IMG/VR virus record: IMGVR_UViG_3300025810_000004
Span: 1-64,000 of that record
Strand: one strand, 5' to 3'
From: a virus
DNA: 64,000 bases
Below the pieces are notes generated by a model, which was given only the letters and a program-made list of their open reading frames with translations, searched no databases and had not been told where the DNA came from. The number at the start of each line of letters is the position of its first letter. The first letter of the stretch is position 1. The position numbers were made by a program, and so were the translations under genes. Below are positions 25,241 through 64,000 of this stretch, piece by piece.

Positions 25241-25930
25241 ATGAAAGAAAAGCACATAGGGGTGAGAATTAAGCAGTGCCTCGCTTTGGCTGAACTCAGC
25301 AATTGTTCTCGCAGAAAATTCGGTGCCATGCTGATTGACCCCAGCCGTAACGTCATACTTGCAGACGGATACAACGGTGGCCCCAGAGGAGGGGGGAAGC
25401 TGTGCAGGGGAACTTGGTGCGAAAGGGACGGGATTCAAGACGAAGACGTATCGATAGAAGTGGAAAACATACTTGAGTACCACGCTCCGAGGGTCCCTCC
25501 GTACAGGGCACAAGAGGTGAAAGTTCTCATTAAGGGGCAAAAGGAGTGGTCCAAGAAGGTAGTGAAAGCAGAGGGGAAATCCCAAGCCATCGAAGAGGCT
25601 ACAGCGGAAAAACTGAGGCTTCTGAAGAAGTACACCCCCATAGAGTCTGGAACCAGAACCGAGAGGGGATGCCACCACGCAGAGGCAAACGTCATATGCA
25701 ACGCCGCCGACAGTGGGGTTTCCACCAGAGGTGCGCTGCTCATAGTGACCGGGGAGCCCTGCCTTTCTTGCTCCAAATACATCCACCACTCTGGAATAAC
25801 CAAAGTCATATGTGTCGAAAACGGCTACAAGGGTGGAAAAGACGGCCCTGAGTATTTGGAAAGGCACGGAATAGAAGTAGAATACACCAAGGGGCCTGGA
25901 GACCCAAGAGAATGCAAACAAACCACCTGA
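25241..25930 (+). CDS. dCMP deaminase (deoxycytidylate/cytidine deaminase family)
   Basis: A 229-aa zinc-dependent deaminase that would convert dCMP to dUMP, the precursor of dTMP. The zinc motifs are HHAEANVI (HAE, catalytic Glu) at about 144-151 and PCLSC at about 174-178; the family N-terminal pattern CSRRKFGAMLIDPSRNVILADGYNG is clear. About 70 residues of charged insertion lie between the N-terminal strand and the HAE motif, making it longer than T4 Cd. Together with dUTPase and thymidine kinase it fits phage thymidylate supply; thymidylate synthase is not in this window. Confidence 0.85.
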   Translation: MKEKHIGVRIKQCLALAELSNCSRRKFGAMLIDPSRNVILADGYNGGPRGGGKLCRGTWCERDGIQDEDVSIEVENILEYHAPRVPPYRAQEVKVLIKGQKEWSKKVVKAEGKSQAIEEATAEKLRLLKKYTPIESGTRTERGCHHAEANVICNAADSGVSTRGALLIVTGEPCLSCSKYIHHSGITKVICVENGYKGGKDGPEYLERHGIEVEYTKGPGDPRECKQTT

Positions 25931-26193: not shown

Positions 26194-28029
26194 ATGGAAG
26201 AACTGATAAGTTGGCTGAAGGACCTCCTTGCTCCAAAACAAGGAGAATTCCTGTATGCCGACTCTTCTCATGACTGGTCCTCCTACGAGGAGGGAACCTT
26301 CCACGGAATAGTGCTGGTTGGTGACAAAGACGACCATTCAGCTATATCAGAAGCCTACAGGGTGCTGAAGCCAGGGGGTCATCTGGCGCTGATATCTCCT
26401 GAAGAAGAACCGACAGGCCACAGTGGAGCTTGCCACGCAGAAGGGGTGGGATTCGAAGTCAGGGACAGCATTCTGGTGTTGTCCCAGCCCGAAGGGTTTG
26501 TGTACTCCGGGAAGACCACCACCAAGGAAAGAGAAGAAGGCTGCTATCTCGTAGAAGAGAAGAGATTCGCTATAAGCGGGGGAGCCAACAAGGTCATAGA
26601 GCGGGGGGAGGATTACGAAACCACCCAGTCCATAGGCATGAACAGGATCCCCAAGCGGCGGAACGTTCACCCCTGTCTTCACCCGGATGCACTGGTGATG
26701 ACGCCCCACGGCTACCGTCCGATCTCGGAGGTCACCGTGGGGGATAAGGTATACTCGGCAGACGGAAGGTTCCATGCCGTCGAGCATGTTTCTAGGCACC
26801 CATACACCAGTACCGACCTCTTTGAGATCAAGGTCACTGGGACCAACTATTCAACTCTCGCTTCCGACAATCACCCCTTCCTGGTGTACCGTCCCACCCG
26901 CAAGCGGAACTCCATAACAGGTGGTCAGGTTCTGTGGCTCCGCGCCGACCAGATGCAAAAAGGGGACTATACAATGACTCCGGATCTGGAGGAGCCCCCT
27001 CCGAACGAACACCTTGACCCAGAATGGTGGTTCGTGTTCGGTTTGTGGGTAGCCGAGGGTGTTGCCCAACGTGCAGGGCATGGTAGCAACGTATACCCGT
27101 CCTTCACCCTCCACGAAAAGGAAACGGACCTGATTGAGCGTATCAGGTCGGTGTTCTCGTCGGCGAACACAAGTGTGCATCCTAAGAAGGGCACGAAAGC
27201 CGTGCAGGTAATATCCTTCGACAAGGTGGCGGGGTCGCGGTTCGTTGAGTTGGCAGGTCGCGGGGCGGCGACGAAATGCCTCCACCCTTCTATTTGGACC
27301 CTTCCAAAGAACATCCGTGCAGCCATCCTTGATGGCTATATGGCCGGGGATGGTGGCAAAGTGCGCACTTATCTACAGGCCAAAAGTGTATCGCCCGATC
27401 TCGCGTCACAGATACGATTGCTTGCCGCGTCCGTGGGGTACAAGGCCAACCTGTTCACCTACGCCCCTGTAGAGGGACAAAGTATCGGTGATCGCTTGTT
27501 CAAATCTGTTCGGCAGACCTATCAGATCCGGCTCTACTCGGAAAACACGCGGAACGTCGCAGCGGGGTTACGCAAGGCTTCCCGACCTTATGAGATCGTC
27601 CACGACGGAGTGCGTTTCGTCTTGTCATACGTCAAGGCTGTGTCCCGTGTTCCTTATGAGGGGGACGTGGTCAACCTCTCCGTGGAAGGATCACCGACCT
27701 TCCAGACGGCTGTGGGTATGAGCCACAACACTGTGAAGCCCAGGGTTGTAATGCAGCACCTCCTGTCTGATGTGGATAAAGATTCAGGCCCCGTGGTGGA
27801 CCCCTTCATGGGTTCGGGAACCACGGGTCTGGCGTGTCTCAGGACGGGACACGACTTCGTAGGGATAGAGAGAGAGGAAGAGTACGCAAAGATAGCCGAT
27901 TCCCGAATCCGGCACTGGACCAACGCCGAAGAGGCTTGGAACCCTGTGGTGTTGGAGTCAGAAGTCGGTCCGGAGGCAGAGAGCACAGAAGTGCAGGAAG
28001 TCTCCTTCGAGGATTTCTTGGGGATATGA
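26194..28029 (+). CDS. DNA methyltransferase C-terminal part with intein
   Basis: A 611-aa open frame: 259 residues of host protein plus a 352-residue intein. The extein has an SAM-methyltransferase-like N-part (EAYRVLKPGGHLAL), FVYSGKTTTKEREEG, the motif RNVHP|TVKP split by the intein, and DPFMGSGTTG (SAM-binding motif I) followed by FVGIEREEEYAKIA. This order belongs to the beta class, but the usual catalytic DPPY before RVLKPGG is missing (the region reads FHGIVLVGDKDDHS). The next gene contains DPPY, and a third fragment lies at 30221. After splicing it could be one partner of a split enzyme, or a degenerate copy. The substrate site is unknown. Confidence 0.75.
   Translation: MEELISWLKDLLAPKQGEFLYADSSHDWSSYEEGTFHGIVLVGDKDDHSAISEAYRVLKPGGHLALISPEEEPTGHSGACHAEGVGFEVRDSILVLSQPEGFVYSGKTTTKEREEGCYLVEEKRFAISGGANKVIERGEDYETTQSIGMNRIPKRRNVHPCLHPDALVMTPHGYRPISEVTVGDKVYSADGRFHAVEHVSRHPYTSTDLFEIKVTGTNYSTLASDNHPFLVYRPTRKRNSITGGQVLWLRADQMQKGDYTMTPDLEEPPPNEHLDPEWWFVFGLWVAEGVAQRAGHGSNVYPSFTLHEKETDLIERIRSVFSSANTSVHPKKGTKAVQVISFDKVAGSRFVELAGRGAATKCLHPSIWTLPKNIRAAILDGYMAGDGGKVRTYLQAKSVSPDLASQIRLLAASVGYKANLFTYAPVEGQSIGDRLFKSVRQTYQIRLYSENTRNVAAGLRKASRPYEIVHDGVRFVLSYVKAVSRVPYEGDVVNLSVEGSPTFQTAVGMSHNTVKPRVVMQHLLSDVDKDSGPVVDPFMGSGTTGLACLRTGHDFVGIEREEEYAKIADSRIRHWTNAEEAWNPVVLESEVGPEAESTEVQEVSFEDFLGI
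26674..27729 (+). mobile_element. Intein with LAGLIDADG homing endonuclease
   Basis: Begins with Cys (CLHPDALVMTPHGYRPISE, splicing block A) and ends VGMSHN, with Thr as the +1 residue. Endonuclease motifs GLWVAEG and LDGYMAGDG are the two LAGLIDADG helices. It sits exactly inside the conserved HPTVKP motif of the methyltransferase. Arg codons here are CGT/CGC/CGA and Ile is mostly ATC, while flanking genes use AGG/AGA and ATA, supporting recent entry. All residues needed for splicing (Cys1, His-Asn end, +1 Thr) are present. Confidence 0.85.
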
Positions 28030-29615: not shown

Positions 29616-30224
29616 ATGCTTGAGGTTATCACGGGCTGCATGTACAGCGGCAAGAGCGAAGAGTTGATCCGGCGTCTTCGGAGATGTCAGATCGCGGACC
29701 AGTTCACCCTTGTGATGAAGCCCGCGATTGACGACCGCTACTCTGCTGACTCCGTTGCGACCCACGTTGGGGGCTCGCTGAAAGCGGTAGCCGTCAAAGA
29801 CGTGCAGGATGTCAAACGTCTGCTCTGTGCACAGCCCTTCTTTATGACCGGGCAGGTCGTTGGTCTGGACGAGGTTCAGTTCCTTGACGACGAGATCGTG
29901 GACGTGCTGGAGGCCGAAGCAAACCGAGGTCGCCGAGTCATCGTAGCGGGCCTCGATCTCGACTCGGACGGCAATCCGTTCGGCCCGATGGCAAGACTTC
30001 TCGCGGTGGCCGACAAAGTGACCAAGTTGACTGCTGTGTGCGTGGCTCGCCTCTTCATCACCCGTGGCCTCCCGTCCGCGAGAGGTCAGGGTGATGTTTG
30101 CGGTAAGCCCGCCACCCGGTCGTACCGGTTGCCCAATCAAGACACAGGAGAGCAGGTGCAGGTCGGCTCCGACGGTGTGTACGAAGCTCGGTGCCGCGTG
30201 TGCTGGGCAAGGATGCAAGGATGA
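29616..30224 (+). CDS. tdk: Thymidine kinase (TK1 class) with an internal insertion
   Basis: A 202-aa enzyme that phosphorylates thymidine to dTMP with ATP. The P-loop GCMYSGKSEEL, the catalytic/Walker B region VVGLDEVQF, the lasso/zinc segment and the final YEARCRVCW are present. The zinc-binding CxxC normally reads AVCxxCGxPAT, but here AVCVA is followed by about 17 extra residues and then DVCGKPATRSYR, so the two Cys are far apart. The insertion contains a 7-bp inverted repeat. Codon use (ATC, CGN, CTC) differs from neighbours, which use ATA and AGG/AGA, suggesting recent transfer. Whether the zinc site still forms is uncertain. Confidence 0.85.
   Translation: MLEVITGCMYSGKSEELIRRLRRCQIADQFTLVMKPAIDDRYSADSVATHVGGSLKAVAVKDVQDVKRLLCAQPFFMTGQVVGLDEVQFLDDEIVDVLEAEANRGRRVIVAGLDLDSDGNPFGPMARLLAVADKVTKLTAVCVARLFITRGLPSARGQGDVCGKPATRSYRLPNQDTGEQVQVGSDGVYEARCRVCWARMQG
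30057..30095 (+). repeat. Inverted repeat in the thymidine-kinase insertion
   Basis: ATCACCC (30057-30063) and GGGTGAT (30089-30095) are complementary arms around a GC-rich interior that can pair further (CCTC with GAGG). It lies inside the ~51-nt in-frame insertion that separates the zinc-binding Cys codons. Confidence 0.5.
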
Positions 30225-32555: not shown

Positions 32556-32858
32556 ATGACCTATGAAAATATCCGCAACAAGTTTCAGAATTCAGAAACC
32601 GACGTCGTGATTGTCGCACCCGATGCCAAGGTGCAAGAAGTCGCACTTGGTCTTTCCACCCTGTTCGAACCGGGAAGCTATTCTGCCTCCCGCAGGGAGT
32701 GGACGAACCACCGCAACGCCAAGGTGAAGGTGCGGGGTATCTGCAACCCCGAAGACCTCAGCCCGGATACAGAGGTCATCTTCTTCCCTGTGACCCGGCC
32801 CTACACCGACACGGAGCGGAGGTTCATCAAGTCCTGGAGGATCACTCCCACTCGATAG
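32556..32858 (+). CDS. Hypothetical 100-aa protein
   Basis: A small alpha/beta protein beginning MTYENIRNKFQNSETDVVIV. ATG 32556 is chosen because GAGG lies upstream at a reasonable distance; an ATG at 32547 is the alternative. It ends with a 17-nt overlap onto the convergent guaA gene. No family recognised. Confidence 0.45.
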   Translation: MTYENIRNKFQNSETDVVIVAPDAKVQEVALGLSTLFEPGSYSASRREWTNHRNAKVKVRGICNPEDLSPDTEVIFFPVTRPYTDTERRFIKSWRITPTR

Positions 32859-34356
32859 TGCCGGGGGGCTTGGTGCTTATATCGTAGGTCACCCTGTTTA
32901 TGCCCCGCACTTCGTTGATGATGCGGGTAGAAATCCGGGTGAGCACCGACCAAGGTATCTCCGCCACGTCAGCCGTCATGCCATCAGTTGAGTGGACCGC
33001 ACGTATGACGCACGTCTTCTCATACGTCCGCTGGTCCCCCATCACCCCCACGCTCTTCACTGGAAGCAAGACTGCGAGGCTCTGCCACAGACGTTCGTAC
33101 CAACCGGACTGTCTGATTTCGTAGTCCAATATAGCTTCGGCTTCCTGCAGAACGGCGACAGCCTCAGCCGTCACCTCACCGGGGATGCGGATAGACAGTC
33201 CGGGACCTGGGAAGGGATGCCTGTTCACACGCTTGTCGCTCAGGCCCAGTTCCTTGCCCAGCAGTCTGACCTCGTCCTTGAAAAGCTCCCTGAGGGGCTC
33301 TATGAGTTCGAATTCAAGGTCTTCCGGCAAACCCCCCACATTGTGGTGGGACTTGATGGTAGCGGAGGGACCACGGAAGGAAACCGACTCGATAACGTCC
33401 GGATAGAGAGTTCCCTGTGCAAGGAACTTCGCGCCCTGAACAGACCTGGCATAATCGCTGAAGACGTCCACGAACGTCTTCCCCACCGCTTTGCGCTTCT
33501 GCTCGGGGTCGGTGAGACCCGACAAAGCAGAATAGAACTTGTCCTTGGCGTCGACCACAGTGAGGTTGAGTTCAGAGAATTCTCGCTCGACCTCCTCCCT
33601 CTCGCCCTTCCTCAGGAGCCCGTTGTCGACAAACACACAGTGCAACCTGTCGCCTATGACCCCGTGGAGGAGAGAAGCGACAACAGAAGAGTCAACCCCG
33701 CCAGACAGACCGCATATGACCTTGTCTTCAGGGGAAACCTGAGACTCTATCTGGGCATGGGCTATGTCTATGTATGATCCCACGCTCCAGTCTTGTGCTA
33801 TGTCGCACTGGTCGACCCACTCTCTTATCAAGGTCGCACCATCTTGGGAGTGGGACACTTCCGGGTGAAATTGGAACCCGGTGAAACCAAGCTCTTCACT
33901 GCGTATCCCGGCGAACTGGCAGTCCACGGTGCTGTAGACGGTTTCCCAGTCTCCCATAGGGAGAGACATAACCTTGTCCCCGTGGGACATCCAGACTTTG
34001 GACCTGACACGGGGGTTCCCACCGGGTTCGCTGATGTAGGCGGGTCCATACTCTCTGGATTTGGTGGATACTACCTCACCACCCAGGTGGTGGACAACCA
34101 CTTGCATCCCATAACATATACCAAGGACCGGAACCCCCATTTCCAACCATTCGCGGTCAAATGGGGGAGCGCCCTCCTCGTACACGGAGGAGGGCCCACC
34201 GGATAACACCACCCCCCTGACGTTCCAGGGGTCGGTTATGCCGAAGGGGTGGTCGGTGCAGGGTCGGATAGAGCAGAAAACACCCAATTCCCGAATCCTA
34301 CGGGCTATGAGTTGGGTGTACTGACTGCCGAAATCTACTATTACGATCCGCTTCAT
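32842..34356 (-). CDS. guaA: GMP synthase (glutamine-hydrolysing)
   Basis: A full-length 504-aa two-domain enzyme converting XMP, ATP and glutamine to GMP. The class I glutamine amidotransferase domain has the nucleophile in GICYGMQ and the His/Glu in FQFHPEVSH. The ATP-pyrophosphatase domain has the PP-loop GLSGGVDSSV. The C-terminal dimerisation motifs HPFPGPGL, RAVHSTDGMTAD and RVTYDISTKPPGTIEWE are intact. All catalytic residues are visible. Phages rarely carry guaA; with IMP dehydrogenase and PurZ at 61-64 kb it would raise guanylate supply for aminoadenine synthesis (inference). It is on the minus strand together with the gene at 34410. Confidence 0.95.
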   Translation of the reverse strand: MKRIVIVDFGSQYTQLIARRIRELGVFCSIRPCTDHPFGITDPWNVRGVVLSGGPSSVYEEGAPPFDREWLEMGVPVLGICYGMQVVVHHLGGEVVSTKSREYGPAYISEPGGNPRVRSKVWMSHGDKVMSLPMGDWETVYSTVDCQFAGIRSEELGFTGFQFHPEVSHSQDGATLIREWVDQCDIAQDWSVGSYIDIAHAQIESQVSPEDKVICGLSGGVDSSVVASLLHGVIGDRLHCVFVDNGLLRKGEREEVEREFSELNLTVVDAKDKFYSALSGLTDPEQKRKAVGKTFVDVFSDYARSVQGAKFLAQGTLYPDVIESVSFRGPSATIKSHHNVGGLPEDLEFELIEPLRELFKDEVRLLGKELGLSDKRVNRHPFPGPGLSIRIPGEVTAEAVAVLQEAEAILDYEIRQSGWYERLWQSLAVLLPVKSVGVMGDQRTYEKTCVIRAVHSTDGMTADVAEIPWSVLTRISTRIINEVRGINRVTYDISTKPPGTIEWE

Positions 34357-34409: not shown

Positions 34410-36344
34410 TTAGCTGTTATTCTTCAGAAGCCTAAGACGCTCTCGGTTGTCAAGCTCCATGAAGTGCTCAAGGGCGGGGTCGTCAGACTCGAACCCCGCA
34501 TCTTCAGCGGCCCTCCAGATGGCACCATCATCCTGGGCCAGGTACTTCAGACCCTTAATTCCGGGCTCGGGGCCGTCCCCGTCGTAGGAGTATCCGACAA
34601 TCTCGCCCGCCAGGATGTCCAGGTCTCTGCGGTCGAACGACAGGAAAATCCTGGAAGCGGACTTTCCTCGTGCGTGCTGAATGTTCTCTGCGCGTACAAC
34701 AGATTCCACCCCGCCGTTGCTCCACCGCACGGTCGGGTGACCCTTGAAGAAACCAGTCTCCGCAACGTCAACCACCTTGCCGTCAATAGGAGCACCAACC
34801 TGCATTCCCGTGTTCCGCAGGAACTTTCCAGTGTGTCGAACGATGTCCCCCACCTTGAAGTCTCCAGCCTTACCCCCAACCTTACCCAGTTGACTCACTA
34901 TGGACTTCTTCATGGCCTTTCTGATCGTATCCTGAATGCGGGTCAGGTCCTTGGTGGTAGGGTTGCCGCTTATTGCTCCCCCGATCATAGTTCCATACTT
35001 AAAGAGTACGGATTCAATGGCTCTGTCTATAGCCCTGTCTTCCCTCATATCGCTGCCGCTGCCGCGCTTCTTCCACCTCCGGGTGGACTGCTCCTCGCGG
35101 AAGTCCTGCAACACCTGAGTTCGGAGGCTCTTGACGCGTTCCTTGATGTCTTCCTCTCTGGTATGCTTGTAGAGAAGGTCTATCTTTGCCTTCTCCTCTT
35201 CGTCCTTCAGCTCTTGCTGGACACTTGCAAACACCTCGTCGAAAGACTGAATCAGAGCCTTCTTGGCCCCCTTCCAAGCCTTGGCCACGCGGGGAGCAGA
35301 GGGGACGTTGCCGCTTTCTCCCACGATGCCGTTCTCTTCCATATACTCGCGCACGTTTTTGACCCTGAGGCCAACGTCAGCACTGGACCCACCCCTGAAG
35401 ATGAAGGGGTCCCTTCCCTCTTCCTTCATCTTCATGGCAACCTCCACAACCTTCAGCTGGAAGGAATTGTTGCGGAGGTTCCAAAGCCAGTTGGGAACGG
35501 TCCGGTTGAACCACCCATCGAACTCAAGGAGATCTTCTGGTTCGAGGGGATCGGCGTCCTCAAAGATCTCGGCTATAACCTCAGGCCCAAGGAACTGAGC
35601 CTTGTAACCCTGGTCTATAGACTTCACCCACTTCCTGGCTATATTCTGGGCGGATTTACCGAGCTGTGAAACCAGCTTCTTGAGACCGGGCCGAGCCGGA
35701 GCGAGCTTCGTTATGATGCTCTCACCAACGGGGTAGAGAGGAGGACGGTCCTTGAACTTCTTCTGGGTGTTGTCCCAGATGTCTCCGGGAAGGGGAAGGC
35801 CACCCATGACCATGACGGCAGCTATGTCGTCAGGGGAAGCACCGCGTATGCCGGGAACGTGGTCGGCGTAGTGGGGCTTCCAGGAGTTGGCAAGCCCAGC
35901 AGACGCGCCGCCGTACAGGGCGTTGTACAATCCGGTTTCGTTCGGCATGAAGAAGGTGCCGATGAAGTCAAGGGCGTTGCCCTTCCGCATCTTGGACCAG
36001 AGTTCGGGGGCAGGATAACCCAACTCAGCCTCAGCGGCAGTTATGGCCTTCTTGTCCACCTTCTTGGGGTCGCCCCCCGCCAGTCGCATGACCACCTGGT
36101 TGAACTCCTTGGTCCTGTTTGCCTCGTCGGAGAGGGAGGCACCACTCAGGAACTGCCGCCTGAAGGACAGGGGGTTTTCGCCGAGTATGGCAGCAAGGTA
36201 ATCGCTTCTCATGAGGCGGTCCATGCTGGCAGCAGTTGCCTTCTTCAGGATAGAGGCCACCAACACTCTGGCGTTCTTCCTCAGGGAGACGTCGAGGAAT
36301 GGGGTGTTTGCGATTCTAACCAAAGGCGACAGGGTTGCGTACAT
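34410..36344 (-). CDS. Large protein with C-terminal SH3-like domain, unknown
   Basis: A 644-aa protein without recognised family. The N-terminal half is helical (EANRTKEFNQVVMRLAGG, SMDRLMRSDYLAAILG). Residues about 385-440 form a charged coil. Near residue 505 a stretch reads like a small SH3-type barrel (FKVGDIVRHTGKFL, then KVVDVAETGFFKGHPTVRW). It is upstream of guaA in the same minus-strand unit. It could be a virion-packaged or host-takeover protein, but nothing shows this directly. Confidence 0.5.
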   Translation of the reverse strand: MYATLSPLVRIANTPFLDVSLRKNARVLVASILKKATAASMDRLMRSDYLAAILGENPLSFRRQFLSGASLSDEANRTKEFNQVVMRLAGGDPKKVDKKAITAAEAELGYPAPELWSKMRKGNALDFIGTFFMPNETGLYNALYGGASAGLANSWKPHYADHVPGIRGASPDDIAAVMVMGGLPLPGDIWDNTQKKFKDRPPLYPVGESIITKLAPARPGLKKLVSQLGKSAQNIARKWVKSIDQGYKAQFLGPEVIAEIFEDADPLEPEDLLEFDGWFNRTVPNWLWNLRNNSFQLKVVEVAMKMKEEGRDPFIFRGGSSADVGLRVKNVREYMEENGIVGESGNVPSAPRVAKAWKGAKKALIQSFDEVFASVQQELKDEEEKAKIDLLYKHTREEDIKERVKSLRTQVLQDFREEQSTRRWKKRGSGSDMREDRAIDRAIESVLFKYGTMIGGAISGNPTTKDLTRIQDTIRKAMKKSIVSQLGKVGGKAGDFKVGDIVRHTGKFLRNTGMQVGAPIDGKVVDVAETGFFKGHPTVRWSNGGVESVVRAENIQHARGKSASRIFLSFDRRDLDILAGEIVGYSYDGDGPEPGIKGLKYLAQDDGAIWRAAEDAGFESDDPALEHFMELDNRERLRLLKNNS

Positions 36345-38199: not shown

Positions 38200-38349
38200 A
38201 TGGCCCGACGAGAAGAAATCCGACTCACGGTTGATCCTGATATGCTCGTCTGGCTGAGGGCTGAAGCCAAACGCCGTCGGGTCTCTATGTCCCACATCGT
38301 GCGGGACCTTATCCTTCAGGCCATGCCCGAAGAGGCCAAGACCCAGTGA
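38200..38349 (+). CDS. Ribbon-helix-helix DNA-binding protein
   Basis: A 49-aa protein. REEIRLTVDPDMLVWLRAEA then SMSHIVRDLILQAM has the beta-strand plus two helices of the RHH (Arc/CopG) fold. It has GGAG upstream, and its stop overlaps the GTG start of tnpB (GTGA), so the two are translationally coupled. It may repress the element by binding its own promoter; a TATAAG box at 38165 lies 35 nt upstream. Inferred role only. Confidence 0.65.
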   Translation: MARREEIRLTVDPDMLVWLRAEAKRRRVSMSHIVRDLILQAMPEEAKTQ

Positions 38350-39638
38350 GGCTGGCCTACCGAGTGGAGATCAGGCCGACGCCTCGCCAGAGGCAGGCCC
38401 TCCTGCAACATGCAGGCAACGCTCGGTGGGCTTACAACTGGGGCCTCTCCCGCCACAAAGAAACCTACGACCAGTGGGTTGAAATCGGCAAGCCAAAGAA
38501 GTGGAAAGGCTGGCTCAACGCCGTCTCCCTTCACCGGGAGTTGAATCTTCTGAAGAAGGCTGCCCCAGAGGACGGCGGGGTCCCCTGGATGTACGAGGCC
38601 AGTAAAGCCGCTCCACAAGAGAGTCTGAGAGACCTTGACCGTGCGTTCAAGAACTTCCTCTCAGGGAGGGCCAAGTACCCCCGGTTCAAGTCCCGGAGCC
38701 GTGGGGTCGGCGGGTTCCGCCTGACCGGCACCATCAAGGTCGATCACCGGACGGTCCAACTCCCGAGGATCGGAAGGCTCCGGTTTCAGCCCGGCGAACA
38801 GGGCTACCTGCCCTGGGGTAAGCACACCCAGGTCTCCGTCTCTGAGAAGGCTGGCAGGTGGTTCGTCTCGATCGTTGGACCAGAGGTCTCGGAAGCAGAG
38901 CCGAACGGGAAAGATGCTGTAGGTCTGGATCTCGGCGTGACCCGGTTGGCTACGCTGTCGGACGGGACGGTCATCGAGAACCCTCGCGCTTTGAAGTCAG
39001 CCCAGCGGAAGATCAAGCGACTCCAGCAGGAGGTATCCAGAAAGAAGAAAGGCTCAGCGAACCGAGGCAAGGCCAGGGCGAAGCTCGCCCGTGCCCACGT
39101 CCGGGTCGCTAATGTAAGACGTGACACGCTTCACAAGGCCACGACCATGCTTGCCAAGAGCCACGGCAAGGTGATCATCGAGGACTTGAAGGTGCGGAAC
39201 ATGACTCGCTCGGGAGGCTCGCAGAAGCGGGGCCTCAACCGGGCCCTGCTCGATGCCGCCTTCGGGGAGTTCTGTCGCCTGTTGAAGTACAAGGGGAAGC
39301 TGTACGGCTGTGAAGTCGTGGCTGTCCCGCCGCAGTACACCTCGCAGCGATGTTCCGTTTGCGGTCACGTCGAGAAGGACAACCGGGTTTCTCAGTCGAG
39401 GTTCCTGTGTCTGTCCTGCGGCTTTGCGGTCAATGCTGATCTCAACGCCGCGATCAACATCTTGGAGGCCGCCAGTTCTACGGACTCCCTAAACGCCTGT
39501 GGAGAGGGCGTAAGACCTACTTCGACTTGTTCGGAGAGGCAGACCTCGTTGAAGCAGGAACCCGGCACCAACCTTCGGGTTGGGTCAGTCCGGGGGCCGT
39601 CCTCGCAAGAGGCGGCAGCCATGCCTGGGTTTACCTAA
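38346..39638 (+). CDS. tnpB: TnpB RNA-guided endonuclease (IS605 OrfB)
   Basis: A 430-aa protein with a GTG start, a normal size for TnpB. The N-terminal helical part RLAYRVEIRPTPRQRQALL is typical. RuvC motifs are present: GLDLGVTRLA (Asp), KVIIEDLKVRNM (Glu) and NADLNAAINI (Asp). The zinc finger is made of CSVCGH and CLSCGF. All catalytic residues look intact, so it may be active. TnpB cleaves DNA with an omega-RNA guide made from the element's 3' end and helps keep the element at its site. The C-terminal ~55 residues after the third Asp look less conserved and probably overlap the guide RNA. Confidence 0.9.
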   Translation: MRLAYRVEIRPTPRQRQALLQHAGNARWAYNWGLSRHKETYDQWVEIGKPKKWKGWLNAVSLHRELNLLKKAAPEDGGVPWMYEASKAAPQESLRDLDRAFKNFLSGRAKYPRFKSRSRGVGGFRLTGTIKVDHRTVQLPRIGRLRFQPGEQGYLPWGKHTQVSVSEKAGRWFVSIVGPEVSEAEPNGKDAVGLDLGVTRLATLSDGTVIENPRALKSAQRKIKRLQQEVSRKKKGSANRGKARAKLARAHVRVANVRRDTLHKATTMLAKSHGKVIIEDLKVRNMTRSGGSQKRGLNRALLDAAFGEFCRLLKYKGKLYGCEVVAVPPQYTSQRCSVCGHVEKDNRVSQSRFLCLSCGFAVNADLNAAINILEAASSTDSLNACGEGVRPTSTCSERQTSLKQEPGTNLRVGSVRGPSSQEAAAMPGFT

Positions 39639-43349: not shown

Positions 43350-45332
43350 GTGGCTGATTCTGCTAATGGTCTTTCTGTCTTTCCCAATGAGTTGTCTCAG
43401 TTCGTAATCACCCGGTCTTACTCCAGGTGGAACCCCGATTTGGGCCGGAGGGAGACTTATCCGGAGACGGTAGAAAGATACTGCAGTTTCATTTCCAAGC
43501 ACCGTGACATACCAGCCGAAATACTGGAAGAGATACGGTCTGGAATCCGGACCATGAACACACTCCCCTCCATGCGAGCGTTGTGGTCTGCGGGTACAGC
43601 GGCAGAGACCGACAACACCATGATCTACAACTGCTCTTTCCTCCCGCTCGACAATCTCAGAGCATTCTCCGAGATGCTCTACATCCTGATGATGGGGACT
43701 GGTGTGGGGTACTCCGTCGAAAGAACGTTCGTGGACAACCTTCCTAAGGTTTATCCCTCCAACGGACACACCCACCACATCACGGTGGAGGACAGCACGG
43801 CAGGATGGGCGGATTCCCTGTTTGAGGGATTGACCTACATGTGGAAGGGAAGCAAGGTCACATTCGACTATTCTCTCGTCCGTCCGGAAGGCTCAAGGTG
43901 CAAGACCAAGGGTGGCAGAGCTTCCGGACCCAAGCCGCTGAAGGACCTCCACGATTTCTGTCAGAACCTTCTGGACAACGCGAGGGGTCGCAAGCTCAGG
44001 TCCATAGAGGTCAGTGACATAGCTTGCATGATCGGGGAAATAGTCAAGGCAGGGGGAGTCCGGGGTGCTGCCCTTATTTGCTTCTCCGACCCTGACGACG
44101 AGGAAATGCGTCACGCCAAGGACTGGAGCCGGGGCGACTTTCCGAGTTACAGATACGTGGCGAACTTCAGCGGATTCTGGTCTGAGCGTCCAGACCGGAA
44201 GACCTTCGACAAGGAGTGGACTGCTCTCAGGAACTCCGGGTCTGGTGAGCGCGGCTTCTACATGTTCCCCCACCACAAGCGTTCTGAGCGCCGGGGTGAC
44301 TGCCGCTCCAACCCGTGTGGGGAAATCCTGCTCCGTTTCAAGAGGGCCGAGTGCCCCTGGACCGGAAGAGGCGGCGGGGGTCAGTTTTGCAACCTCTCTG
44401 CAGCTGTCATGCGTTCTTGGGACACCAAGGAGACTTTCGCCGCCAAGATCCGGGTCGCCACCTGGATCGGTGCCATACAGTCCAGCTTCACCGAGTTCCC
44501 GTATCTTCGCCCTGCCTGGAAGCAGCACTGTGAAGAGGACAGGCTTCTCGGTGTGGATATAACGGGCCACTGTGACAACCCCGCCCTTTCTGGTGACAAC
44601 GAGGCCATGGCCTACTTCAACACGGTCGCCAGGGATACTGCGTACGTCGCTGCGAAGCATCTGGACATAAACGTCCCAGCCATGATCACCTGTGGGAAGC
44701 CCAGCGGTAACTCCTCTCAGGCAGTGGACTGCGCAAGCGGTTTCCATACCCGTTGGAGCAAGTTCTACATCCGCAGAGTTCGCATCAACAACAGGGACCC
44801 CCTTTTCAGTCTTATCAAGGATGCCGGGGTCCCGGTCTTCAAGGACAACTCGTACAAGAACCTCCCCGACGAGGAGTGCCCTAGGTGGGTTGCGGAGTTC
44901 CCGGTCAAATCGCCTGAAGGCTGCATGACCAGAGACGACGAGACTGCCATCGAGCAGCTCAACCGCTACCTCAACATCATGGAGACTTGGCTTTCGGTCA
45001 AGGGACACAACCAGTCTGCCACCGTCTACGTTCGGGACCACGAGTGGGATGGAGTCGGTGACTGGCTTTACGAGAACTTCAACAAGGTCACCGGACTCTC
45101 CTTCCTCCCCTACGACGGCGGGAAGTACGAACTGGGACCCTACGAGACCATAACCGAAGAAGAGTACAACCGCCTCAGCGAGAGCTTCCCCCACATCGAC
45201 TATTCCCTCCTTCCCTCCTACGAGGTTGAGGACATGGGTACGGGTGCACAGGAGCTTGCTTGCATGGGCGGTTCTTGTGAATTGGGTGATTGGCTCGACG
45301 CCAAGAGCGAAGAAGTCTCCGCTTCTTTGTAG
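43350..45332 (+). CDS. nrdJ: Class II (adenosylcobalamin) ribonucleotide triphosphate reductase
   Basis: A ~660-aa monomeric RTPR that reduces NTPs to dNTPs with adenosylcobalamin. Motifs are YNCSFLPLDN (first redox Cys region), SNPCGEILL (active site with the radical-site Cys), GGQFCNLSAAVM, GKPSGNSSQAVDCASGFHTRW and a C-terminal CMGGSC pair for thioredoxin-type reduction. It resembles the Lactobacillus-type enzyme more than NrdA. Because it acts on triphosphates, it would make dGTP directly from GTP. The GTG at 43350 has GAGGGG seven bases upstream; the ATG at 43335 has no ribosome-binding site. Confidence 0.9.
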   Translation: MADSANGLSVFPNELSQFVITRSYSRWNPDLGRRETYPETVERYCSFISKHRDIPAEILEEIRSGIRTMNTLPSMRALWSAGTAAETDNTMIYNCSFLPLDNLRAFSEMLYILMMGTGVGYSVERTFVDNLPKVYPSNGHTHHITVEDSTAGWADSLFEGLTYMWKGSKVTFDYSLVRPEGSRCKTKGGRASGPKPLKDLHDFCQNLLDNARGRKLRSIEVSDIACMIGEIVKAGGVRGAALICFSDPDDEEMRHAKDWSRGDFPSYRYVANFSGFWSERPDRKTFDKEWTALRNSGSGERGFYMFPHHKRSERRGDCRSNPCGEILLRFKRAECPWTGRGGGGQFCNLSAAVMRSWDTKETFAAKIRVATWIGAIQSSFTEFPYLRPAWKQHCEEDRLLGVDITGHCDNPALSGDNEAMAYFNTVARDTAYVAAKHLDINVPAMITCGKPSGNSSQAVDCASGFHTRWSKFYIRRVRINNRDPLFSLIKDAGVPVFKDNSYKNLPDEECPRWVAEFPVKSPEGCMTRDDETAIEQLNRYLNIMETWLSVKGHNQSATVYVRDHEWDGVGDWLYENFNKVTGLSFLPYDGGKYELGPYETITEEEYNRLSESFPHIDYSLLPSYEVEDMGTGAQELACMGGSCELGDWLDAKSEEVSASL

Positions 45333-60646: not shown

Positions 60647-60879
60647 TCCCTCCTGTTGTTCTGTCGGTATTTTCTGATTTTCCCCACGTCCAGACTGTGG
60701 TTTGGGACGGAGAAGTTGAGGTCAACGGGTCCAAAGTGGGGAACCCAGAAATCTTTGAACCATTGTGGGACTTCTTTGTCGAAACTCCGCACGTTCGTTA
60801 TGACCGTGCGGAGGTAAGCGCCGAATCCCCGACTGGTATACTCCCCAACCCCCTAACAACCTTAGGATCAGACTCATGA
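60643..60879 (+). CDS. Small 78-aa protein upstream of purZ
   Basis: GTG start overlapping the preceding stop, and its own stop overlaps the purZ ATG (ATGA), so purZ is translationally coupled to it. Reads VIPPVVLSVFSDFPHVQTVV. Small, with no family recognised. Confidence 0.55.
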   Translation: MIPPVVLSVFSDFPHVQTVVWDGEVEVNGSKVGNPEIFEPLWDFFVETPHVRYDRAEVSAESPTGILPNPLTTLGSDS

Positions 60880-61955
60880 GTGGTAGAAAGAGAGAAGTGG
60901 TTGCTGTCATTGGCGCACAATTCGGCAGTGAGGGCAAGGGCAAGGTCGTTGACTGCCTTGTCAAGAACATGGACGGTGGAAACGGGTTCGACGTTGCCGT
61001 TCGGACTGGTGGTCCCAACGCTGGGCACACCTTCTACACCAAGGACGGCAAGGCGTGGGTCATGCAGTCCATCCCGTGTGCTTGGGAAGACCCCACCACC
61101 AAGCTCGTCATCGGTGCGGGTGCTCTGTTCGACCCGGAGCAGATCAACGCAGAGATCGACCGCATCGAGGCCGAATACGGTGAGGGCTACATCACCAACC
61201 GCCTCTACGTTGATCCCAACGCTGCCGTCATCGCTCAGGACCACCGCGACTTCGAGGGCGGCACCAAGGGTGACGCCCACGCCAAGATCGGCTCCACGGG
61301 CAAGGGGGTTGGTATCGCTCGCGCTGTCCATATCGCTCGTGGGCTCGGCTGGCACGGCGAACTCTCCACTGGCACCGTCGCTTCCCGTGGGCTGAAGGGT
61401 CGCTGGATCGAGGCCGACACCGTTGAGATCATCCAGCAGGGCGACCGCATCCTGCTGGAGGGCACCCAGGGTGCTGGTCTCTCGCTTCTCCACGGTCCTT
61501 GGCCGAAGACCACCAGCGCCGACATTGGTGTCGCCTCCATGATGTCCGAGGCCGGTGTCCCCCCCGGTGACCGCCCCGTGGTCGTCTGGTACGCCACCCG
61601 CACTATGCCGATCCGCGTCGCTGGTCCCTCCGGTCCTCTCCCCGGCGAAATGACCTGGGAAGAGGTGTCCAAGTCCGCAGGCCGCGTGGTCATCGAGCGC
61701 ACCACCGTGACCAAGAAGGTCCGCCGCATCGGTCGCTTCGATATGAAGGAGTTCAAGCGCTCTGTGGCCCGCAATGGTGCGGGCAAGGTGCTTTTGACCT
61801 TCTGCGACTACCTCGACGGCGGCAAGCCCGTCAATGAGGACGGATCCCTCGCTCCCGAGACTCAGGCTCTCGTGGACGAGATCAATGGGGTGTCCGGGAT
61901 CACTGTCGCCGGTATCAGCATTGGGCCGAAGGCCAGCGAAACCATCCTCTTTTAG
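60876..61955 (+). CDS. purZ: PurZ, N6-succino-2-amino-2'-deoxyadenylate synthase
   Basis: A 359-aa enzyme of the adenylosuccinate synthetase superfamily, closer in length to archaeal PurA (~340) than to E. coli PurA (432). Family motifs are GAQFGSEGKGK (nucleotide loop), GGPNAGHTF, KIGSTGKGVGIA, EGTQGAGLSLLHG and TVTKKVRRIGRFD. The catalytic Asp of PurA (GDEGKGK) is replaced by Ser18 here, the change reported for PurZ, which joins Asp to dGMP instead of IMP. The product is finished by host PurB to give dZMP. Codons are CGN/ATC-biased, indicating strong expression. Neighbours (dUTPase/MazG-like fusion, IMP dehydrogenase) fit a Z-DNA pathway. Assignment from motif, not assay. Confidence 0.85.
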   Translation: MSGRKREVVAVIGAQFGSEGKGKVVDCLVKNMDGGNGFDVAVRTGGPNAGHTFYTKDGKAWVMQSIPCAWEDPTTKLVIGAGALFDPEQINAEIDRIEAEYGEGYITNRLYVDPNAAVIAQDHRDFEGGTKGDAHAKIGSTGKGVGIARAVHIARGLGWHGELSTGTVASRGLKGRWIEADTVEIIQQGDRILLEGTQGAGLSLLHGPWPKTTSADIGVASMMSEAGVPPGDRPVVVWYATRTMPIRVAGPSGPLPGEMTWEEVSKSAGRVVIERTTVTKKVRRIGRFDMKEFKRSVARNGAGKVLLTFCDYLDGGKPVNEDGSLAPETQALVDEINGVSGITVAGISIGPKASETILF

Positions 61956-61972
61956 AACGGAGAACAGACGAA

Positions 61973-62701
61973 ATGTCTGATGAAAACACCCGCCAGTTCC
62001 TTGCAGGGGTCAAAGATCGAATTGACGAAGCCTTTGCGGTCATGACCGAGAAGGCAGAACTTCGTGGTACTTCCAATCTTGACGACCAGGGAGTCCACGG
62101 TGTCTTGGGTCGCATGATCCACGACAAGGGTGTTCGCATCAGACGCTGGCTGGAGACTGGTGAAGAGGACTTCGAAGCTGTCCGCGACGACGTTCTCGAC
62201 ACCATCAACTACGCCGCCATCGCGTTGTTCATGGGTGACACCAATCGAGGGGCTGGTCCCGGTCCCTCGATTGGCAATCCCCTCGTCACCCACGGCGAGT
62301 TCGAAAGAGCCCACGAAACCGACGCTGGCTGGGACGTGTACACCAGCGAAGACGTCGTGGTTCCTCCCCACACCCACTCCAACGTTCCCAGCGGCACCCG
62401 CATGGTCCCGCCCCCCGGAACGTGGCTGTTCCTCGTGGGGCGCAGCAGCACGTGGTCGAAGCACAAGCTGATGGTCATTCCCGGTGTCATCGACGCCGGG
62501 TACTCCGGTGAGCTGTTCGCCATGGTCCACAACCCCACCGACCAGCCCGTCACCCTCCCCAAGGGGTCGCGGGTCGTGCAGGCCATCCCCATCCCCATCC
62601 CGGCTCTCAAGGTCGTGGCTGGCTCGATGGAGGACGTTCATGCTGCCGCTGAGCGGTACGGAGACCGTGGCTCCAAGGGGTTTGGTTCCTCAGGAACCTG
62701 A
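61973..62701 (+). CDS. MazG-superfamily (Nmad1-like) domain fused to dUTPase
   Basis: A 242-aa two-domain protein. Residues about 1-85 (KAELRGTSNLDDQGVHGVLG, then DKGVRIRRWLE and DDVLDTINYAAIALFM) resemble Nmad1/DUF1599, a MazG-like fold whose members hydrolyse nucleoside triphosphates. Residues about 105-242 contain the five dUTPase motifs: DAGWDVYTSED (I), GRSSTW (II), GVIDAGYSGEL (III), GSRVVQAIP (IV) and RGSKGFGSSG (V). dUTPase makes dUMP and keeps uracil out of DNA. The first domain could supply dGMP to PurZ in the way MazZ does in other Z phages; this is inference. It begins 17 nt after purZ. Confidence 0.8.
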   Translation: MSDENTRQFLAGVKDRIDEAFAVMTEKAELRGTSNLDDQGVHGVLGRMIHDKGVRIRRWLETGEEDFEAVRDDVLDTINYAAIALFMGDTNRGAGPGPSIGNPLVTHGEFERAHETDAGWDVYTSEDVVVPPHTHSNVPSGTRMVPPPGTWLFLVGRSSTWSKHKLMVIPGVIDAGYSGELFAMVHNPTDQPVTLPKGSRVVQAIPIPIPALKVVAGSMEDVHAAAERYGDRGSKGFGSSGT

Positions 62702-62769: not shown

Positions 62770-63369
62770 ATGAAGAATCTCACTGCTTCCGATCGCAAGG
62801 TCCTCATTCGACTCGCTTCTTCGCTCCCGAAGGGAGACAAGTCGCGCAGGACTATCTTGTCTGGTCTCAGCAAAGTCGCAGCCAAGAAGGTCGTTCTTGA
62901 GGGCCTGGACCCCCGCACCCACAAGGAAATACTGGATGCAATTGGCAAGGTGAAGCGGGTCCTTGGGGACTCTGAGTTCGTTGCCTACAACGACATCTGG
63001 TCCGGCAAGTTCCTTGATGAAGCTTCCCCAACCCGCTATGTGGAGAAGGAACAGGAAGAGTACAACCAGTCAGCCGGGTTCGGCTTGATAGGCTCTATCC
63101 TTCCCCTTCTCAGGGGTTCTGCCAGAAAAGAGGTTGAGGAGGCCCTTAGGTCACAGGGTGTTGCTGTTGTCAGCACCAAGAGTGCTCTGGAATTGGCCAA
63201 GAGCGGGCACGAAGGCGGAGGTGGCTGGAGGTGGGAAGACACCACAGCCACCTGGGGAGACTTGTGGAGACTCGTCAAAGGTAAAGCTGTAGACGCTGTG
63301 GCTGTGTCCAAGTTGGTCGGCAAGCTTGAGGACGAGTATGAGGACGAGGACGAAGACGAGGATTGGTAG
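62770..63369 (+). CDS. Hypothetical protein with acidic C-terminus
   Basis: A 199-aa protein starting MKNLTASDRKVLIRLASSLP. The N-terminal pattern (RKVLIRLASSLPKGDKSRRTILSGL) is common in virion and accessory proteins of large phages whose function is unknown. The end is extremely acidic (EDEYEDEDEDEDW). It has a ribosome-binding site GGAGA and lies between dUTPase and IMP dehydrogenase. Confidence 0.5.
   Translation: MKNLTASDRKVLIRLASSLPKGDKSRRTILSGLSKVAAKKVVLEGLDPRTHKEILDAIGKVKRVLGDSEFVAYNDIWSGKFLDEASPTRYVEKEQEEYNQSAGFGLIGSILPLLRGSARKEVEEALRSQGVAVVSTKSALELAKSGHEGGGGWRWEDTTATWGDLWRLVKGKAVDAVAVSKLVGKLEDEYEDEDEDEDW

Positions 63370-63399: not shown

Positions 63400-64000
<601 letters not shown>

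Follow-up and report, generated by a model that had tools for sequence, protein, structure and literature searches.

A PurZ0-like gene and guanylate-synthesis genes suggest a 2-aminoadenine nucleotide pathway in a large phage

The window analysed here comprises bases 1–64,000 of a 158,946-bp virus record that also carries terminase, portal and Baseplate_J genes. We conclude that this large phage probably encodes a PurZ0-like pathway for 2-aminoadenine (Z) nucleotides together with its own guanylate supply. The gene identities, their tree positions, the selection acting on them, the conservation of a gene block and the recurrence of the gene set elsewhere are observed, and from these we infer Z in the virion DNA, the substrates of the enzymes and the direction of flow. 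That guaA and guaB serve this supply is the weakest link of the reading.

A Ser-type PurZ beside the PurZ0 clade

The purZ ORF (60876–61955, plus strand, ATG start) encodes a protein of 359 amino acids that, by profiles, alignment, structure match and tree, is a PurZ0-like 2-amino-adenylosuccinate synthetase. Pfam assigns it to the adenylosuccinate-synthetase family (PF00709, E=4e-46), it matches PHROG 1211 ('2-aminooxy adenylosuccinate synthetase', E=8e-67), and its best NCBIfam model is PurZ (NF038379) at 213 bits, under the curated cut-off of 300. PurZ0 (7vf6) came top in a sequence search of the PDB. The best Foldseek matches to the AlphaFold model of the product (pLDDT 85, pTM 0.87) were archaeal PurA 5k7x (top), PurZ0 7vf6 and the PurZ structures 6fko and 7odx. 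The nucleotide loop reads G13-A-Q-F-G-S18-E-G-K-G-K (GAQFGSEGKGK), where S18 occupies the alignment column that holds Asp13 in E. coli PurA and Ser in the PurZ proteins of S-2L, phiVC8 and SH-Ab; the replacement of Asp by Ser described in the initial annotation thus lies exactly where it had been placed.

At the donor-base site the protein has Asp311, as do PurA and all aligned PurZ0 proteins, whereas PurZ has Asn or Gln. PurZ0 reportedly uses GTP, as Tong is said to have described in the PurZ0 paper of 2023. Donor preferences are given the other way round from such GTP use in PMC12884076. In S-2L PurZ, this site is occupied by a Gln that touches adenine and with which a purine bearing a 2-amino group would clash (PMC8342488). 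Because Asp311 is kept and the S-2L contact is made by Gln, we predict from the alignment that GTP is the donor for the window PurZ.

In the tree, the window PurZ branches first within a clade (support 97/93) that it shares with 15 uncharacterised proteins, of which viral contigs account for 14 and a Bacteroidetes MAG for one. Sister to this clade (96/93) is the characterised PurZ0 clade of actinobacterial phages; Asp-type PurA is separated from the window PurZ (100/99), and the PurZ proteins of phiVC8, SH-Ab and S-2L are placed elsewhere, apart from it. Since the window protein lies outside the characterised PurZ0 clade, we call it PurZ0-like and not PurZ0. The identity as a PurZ-type enzyme and the link to 2-aminoadenine that had been proposed from the letters alone are thus well supported, for the most part on other grounds than it gave (the tree, the DutZ-clade neighbour and the recurring guaB and guaA), and the subtype is corrected from PurZ to PurZ0-like, Asp311 being kept at the base-binding site.

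The gene is real and conserved, because 17 kb are shared without a difference with a contig from another metagenome and because the purZ of a related contig (L009) has 96% amino acid identity with a dN/dS of 0.045; in the same comparison, dN/dS was 0.031 for the adjacent dutZ and 0.065 for guaB. Divergence from L009 at fourfold sites was 0.26 over purZ, dutZ, the ORF at 62770–63369 and guaB, vs 0.44 upstream and 0.59 downstream, as if the block from purZ to guaB had been exchanged, or conserved, as a unit.

The initial annotation had treated the loop Ser as the reported mark of PurZ, and in this respect it did not hold. Viral contigs and phage records yielded 89 sequences for checking, each with the Ser, and of the 80 best-matching relatives in GTDB genomes (bacteria and archaea) 79 have it too; these counts are not frequencies because both searches used conserved peptide patterns favouring Ser. 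The residue is therefore not confined to Z phages, was rejected as a sufficient mark of PurZ, and is by itself unusable for calling Z genomes. In the tree, the Ser-type cellular relatives form two supported, mostly chromosomal, uncharacterised clades; these PurA-like proteins share the Ser and the loop with the window PurZ but, unlike it, fall in separate, well-supported clades and lie in cellular operons, one clade adjoining a DCD-like gene and a deoxynucleoside kinase.

Two observations were made on these chromosomal genes. A conserved GTDB operon found in both bacteria and archaea (L110:2958-7715, L118, L141, L143, L147, L158, L168, L180 and others) contains an RNase_H_2-type exonuclease, a Ser-type PurA-like protein (~345 aa) and a DCD-like protein of the dCTP deaminase/dUTPase fold, often also with a dNK-type deoxynucleoside kinase; it parallels the phage purZ-dutZ pair and could be a cellular modified-purine or defence system. 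In the second chromosomal clade (L172:3906-6776, L160, L161, L170, L149, L164 and others), a P-loop kinase-like domain and a Ser-type PurA-like domain form one protein (~550 aa), and a DUF7002 gene comes next.

The DutZ fusion and the nucleotide-supply genes

The gene at 61973–62701 (plus strand) starts after an 18-bp gap downstream of purZ, an adjacency that is kept in L009, and encodes a fusion of a helical N-terminal domain of ~95 aa (61973–62257) with a C-terminal dUTPase domain (62297–62701) that profiles and tree assign to the DutZ clade. Among the matches listed, the best phage dUTPases for this domain were those of PurZ0 phages (90–121 bits, all others at most 69). In the dUTPase tree, every other member of its clade (95/86) is likewise purZ-linked, and nine ordinary dUTPases lie outside; one purZ-linked row (L091) was misaligned and is placed outside the clade. 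DutZ hydrolyses dATP and dGTP, and dutZ is present in 98 of the 98 PurZ0 genomes examined (PMC12884076). By analogy, the window fusion protein should also hydrolyse dATP and dGTP.

Homologues of the N-terminal domain occur near purZ in other viral contigs, as separate ORFs or as parts of ORFs (L021, L025, L026, L027, L040, L043 and L089), and 11 residues are invariant across eight sequences of the family. In L040 the match to the domain ends in VYLAGPM and the DmtZ query matches within the locus (7e-5), so a DmtZ-like domain may follow within this ORF. The domain is modelled as a three-helix bundle, with which a structure search returned nothing significant (HisE-type chains at E=5.6); a Pfam search gave no match for the domain itself, and the L043 homologue gave a weak match to DUF1599 (E=0.019). 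A DUF5664/DUF550/MazZ identity was rejected, as phmmer matched the domain neither to S-2L MazZ nor to the SH-Ab protein taken as its DUF5664/DUF550 protein and Pfam showed none. The MazG-like domain of the initial annotation is thus located, and the faint DUF1599 match and the three-helix model suggest that it may be Nmad1/MazG-like.

Two genes further on, guaB (plus strand, 63412–64000 in the window and to 64464 of the record) encodes a protein of 350 aa without a CBS domain, intact by profile and motif. Its catalytic loop (GSICTTR) and its flap with Arg-Tyr (SSDRYFQ...EGIKSRVPYKG) are as in bacterial IMPDH, and its best model is TIGR01302 (417 bits, cut-off 481), GMP reductase models scoring lower; on these sequence features, 63412–64464 is an IMP dehydrogenase, not a GMP reductase. 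Published abstracts attribute control by purine nucleotides to the CBS domain of other IMPDHs. Because this domain is absent, the phage GuaB would be expected to have lost feedback control. The other guanylate gene, guaA (32842–34356, minus strand, 504 aa), encodes a glutamine-hydrolysing GMP synthase that is complete by profile, and lies 28 kb from purZ on the opposite strand. A class II (adenosylcobalamin) ribonucleoside-triphosphate reductase of 660 aa is encoded at 43350–45332 (plus strand; PF17975, and TIGR02505 at 222 bits, cut-off 340); the ORF at 34410–36344, also considered for this role, had no family match. Both the class II reductase and the guanylate-synthesis genes mentioned in the initial annotation are thus confirmed, with guaB extending past the window end.

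GMP synthase takes glutamine as a substrate. A GlnII-type glutamine synthetase of 442 aa (record 92477–93805, L004; NF041605 at 409 bits, cut-off 500) might supply it. A thymidine kinase (29616–30224, plus strand, by profiles) and a dCMP deaminase-like protein (25241–25930, plus strand, by profile) belong to nucleotide supply that is not specific to Z.

The 199-aa ORF between dutZ and guaB (62770–63369, plus strand) begins with an N-terminus (LTASDRK...LIRLAS) common to other genes of the phage. The fuller pattern, LTASDRK.LIRLAS..KG...RR.IL, opens at least six otherwise unlike genes (62770–63369 and record 72876–73304, 81715–82062, 116327–116650, 116685–116993 and 117103–117612), and might mark virion proteins for targeting or packaging.

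The wider record and related gene sets

Across the 158,946-bp record, no homologue of DatZ, MazZ, DmtZ, DpoZ or PrimPol was found (phmmer, with HD_3 for DatZ), so that the DpoZ-type polymerase and DatZ for which the initial annotation proposed to search the rest of the genome did not turn up there. Profiles of family A, B and C polymerases had no match in the record (no DNA_pol_A), which thus contains no recognisable replicative polymerase. Queried by phmmer with Ghobes gp53 and the full-length Glenn protein, the record gave no DmtZ, the Glenn protein matching the DutZ domain only. In PurZ0 phages DutZ takes the place of DatZ. DpoZ is not indispensable, since S-2L has a Z genome without it and its PrimPol accepts both A and Z (PMC8065100). 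The replication and recombination genes present are clamp-like, clamp-loader-like, a DEDD-type exonuclease, RecA, RecD2 and RuvC. The record has no terminal repeats and may therefore be incomplete; no nucleotide relatives were found among GenBank phages.

Several other features of the record were noted. At record 109036–111122 (L005), the ORF of a DnaX-like clamp-loader gene runs into intein-like sequence and the next ORF has an intein-like end followed by clamp-loader sequence, the gene being apparently split by an intein. A DNA methylase at 26194–28029 (PF01555) is probably intein-interrupted, because Hint and LAGLIDADG matches lie within it. At 38200–39638, a short ORF is followed by a 430-aa ORF that starts RLAYRVEIRPTPRQRQALLQHAGN and by eye resembles TnpB/IS605 OrfB. 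The phage also encodes a SET-domain protein (PF00856, 29046–29612) and a TPR-sulfotransferase (PF13469, record 117606–118991).

Among 50 other purZ records, most of them under 60 kb and many of them fragments, IMPDH (guaB) was found in the close relative only and guaA in none. When IMG/VR was searched from guaA and guaB, these genes and a PurZ-type gene occurred together in four records (G049, 371 kb; G065, 315 kb; G069, 308 kb; G072, 62 kb), and guaB with purZ in two more (G074 and G076); wherever it was readable, the loop of these PurZ-type genes had Ser. In G065 (L311, a 314,886-bp virus record), an intein apparently interrupts the PurZ-type gene near the nucleotide loop. Five PurZ proteins from guaB-bearing records were entered in the tree and all fell in the phiVC8/S-2L clade (99/99), so that guanylate genes accompany PurZ in two PurZ lineages. 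In G069 and G043, which are identical over the compared locus, the gene order is datZ-like, a 166-aa ORF, guaB and guaA, and the window GuaA groups with the GuaA of these two records (95%; midpoint root, few cellular sequences). A DatZ-like HD protein was found in G069 and G074, and a family A polymerase match in G049, G065, G069 and G074. Elsewhere among viral records, an IMPDH-family gene occurs together with an Asp-type PurA or in the absence of any PurA; guaB alone therefore does not imply Z.

Our literature search, which covered few subscription papers, found nothing joining PurZ, IMP dehydrogenase and phage, or diaminopurine, guaA and phage, and within that scope no described Z-DNA phage was found to have guanylate-synthesis genes of its own.

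Proposed pathway, alternatives and known systems

In the pathway that we favour, the phage GuaB, which has no regulatory CBS domain and should escape feedback, would convert IMP to XMP, from which the phage GuaA would make GMP. Host kinases would raise GMP to GTP and the phage class II reductase would reduce GTP to dGTP; the DutZ fusion protein would then turn dGTP into dGMP and also destroy dATP. PurZ would join dGMP and aspartate into dSMP, probably with GTP, and host PurB and kinases would carry dSMP through dZMP to dZTP, which would enter the phage DNA in place of dATP, wholly or in part. A Z genome draws all its purine nucleotides, half of its nucleotides, from guanylate, and this would account for the presence of guaB and guaA.

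That guaB and guaA are instead general purine auxiliary genes with no special tie to Z, beside a genuine PurZ0-like pathway, is a possibility of some weight that we nevertheless think unlikely. The distance and opposite strand of guaA speak for it, as do the many viral contigs whose IMPDH-family gene accompanies Asp-type PurA or none. An association of PurZ with guaA plus guaB among viral contigs (4 of 10 vs 2 of 67, Fisher p=0.002) is confounded by record length and is not significant among records over 100 kb (3 of 5 vs 2 of 8); for both reasons we do not rely on it. Against a general role, guaB lies two genes from purZ in the same low-divergence block, and in G043 and G069 it adjoins guaA and a datZ-like gene.

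The product might also be a 2-amino-6-succinylamino- or 2,6-diaminopurine nucleotide that does not enter the genome in bulk, remaining a free nucleotide, being used as a base only in small amounts or locally, or acting as an anti-defence metabolite. This would fit the lack of any Z-specific polymerase or DatZ in the record and the existence of uncharacterised Ser-type homologues in bacterial and archaeal chromosomes. However, the tree places the window PurZ next to PurZ0 and outside the cellular clades, a purZ-linked DutZ is directly adjacent, and S-2L maintains its Z genome without DpoZ (PMC8065100), so we judge a non-bulk product improbable. Least credible of all is that the protein contributes to adenylate synthesis as an ordinary adenylosuccinate synthetase, using IMP in spite of its changed catalytic loop: the top structural match is indeed an archaeal PurA (5k7x), Asp311 is common to PurA and the NCBIfam PurZ cut-off is not reached, but the general-base Asp is lost, the split from Asp-type PurA is strong (100/99) and the gene is linked to DutZ and guanylate genes, not to adenylate genes.

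Returning to the preferred reading, of a Z pathway with its own guanylate supply, we tentatively extend it, with rather less confidence than in the pathway itself, to propose that in large phages the Z pathway acquired an IMP dehydrogenase lacking CBS and a GMP synthase at least twice, once in the PurZ0-like lineage and once in a jumbo-phage PurZ lineage. Phage enzymes, perhaps free of host feedback, would thus feed Z genomes from IMP; the present phage would do so without a recognisable Z-specific polymerase, using a host or unrecognised enzyme with its own clamp and clamp-loader-like proteins. Guanylate supply is a foreseeable bottleneck for a Z genome, all DNA purines coming from guanylate; if guaB and guaA belong to the pathway, they would be nature's solution to it and a set of genes at hand for making Z-DNA in engineered cells. 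The PurZ0-like type is also extended to a 159-kb phage record, with a purZ in a sister clade that has no characterised member and with an added helical partner domain.

The closest known system is the PurZ0/DutZ system of Gordonia phages Ghobes and Archimedes and Arthrobacter phage Wayne, which shares with the window a Ser-type PurZ, Asp at the donor-base site and a DutZ-clade dUTPase just downstream. The window phage differs from these phages in that its PurZ (33–36% identity) belongs to the sister clade, that its DutZ is fused to a different N-terminal domain (that of Wayne is fused to DmtZ), that no DmtZ or DpoZ was found, that it has its own guaB, guaA and class II reductase, and that its record is far larger (159 kb vs about 40–83 kb). 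The PurZ/DatZ/MazZ phages phiVC8, S-2L and SH-Ab 15497 likewise have Ser for the catalytic Asp and a nucleotide-pool enzyme beside purZ; in contrast to them, the window has a PurZ of a different clade, Asp and not Asn or Gln at the donor-base site, and no DatZ or MazZ that we could find. Finally, records G049, G065, G069 and G072 share with the window a PurZ-type gene, a GMP synthase and an IMPDH of ~350–390 aa without room for CBS, whereas those of their PurZ proteins that were entered in the tree belong, unlike that of the window, to the phiVC8/S-2L clade, and a DatZ-like HD protein is found in G069, and a match to family A polymerase in G049, G065 and G069.
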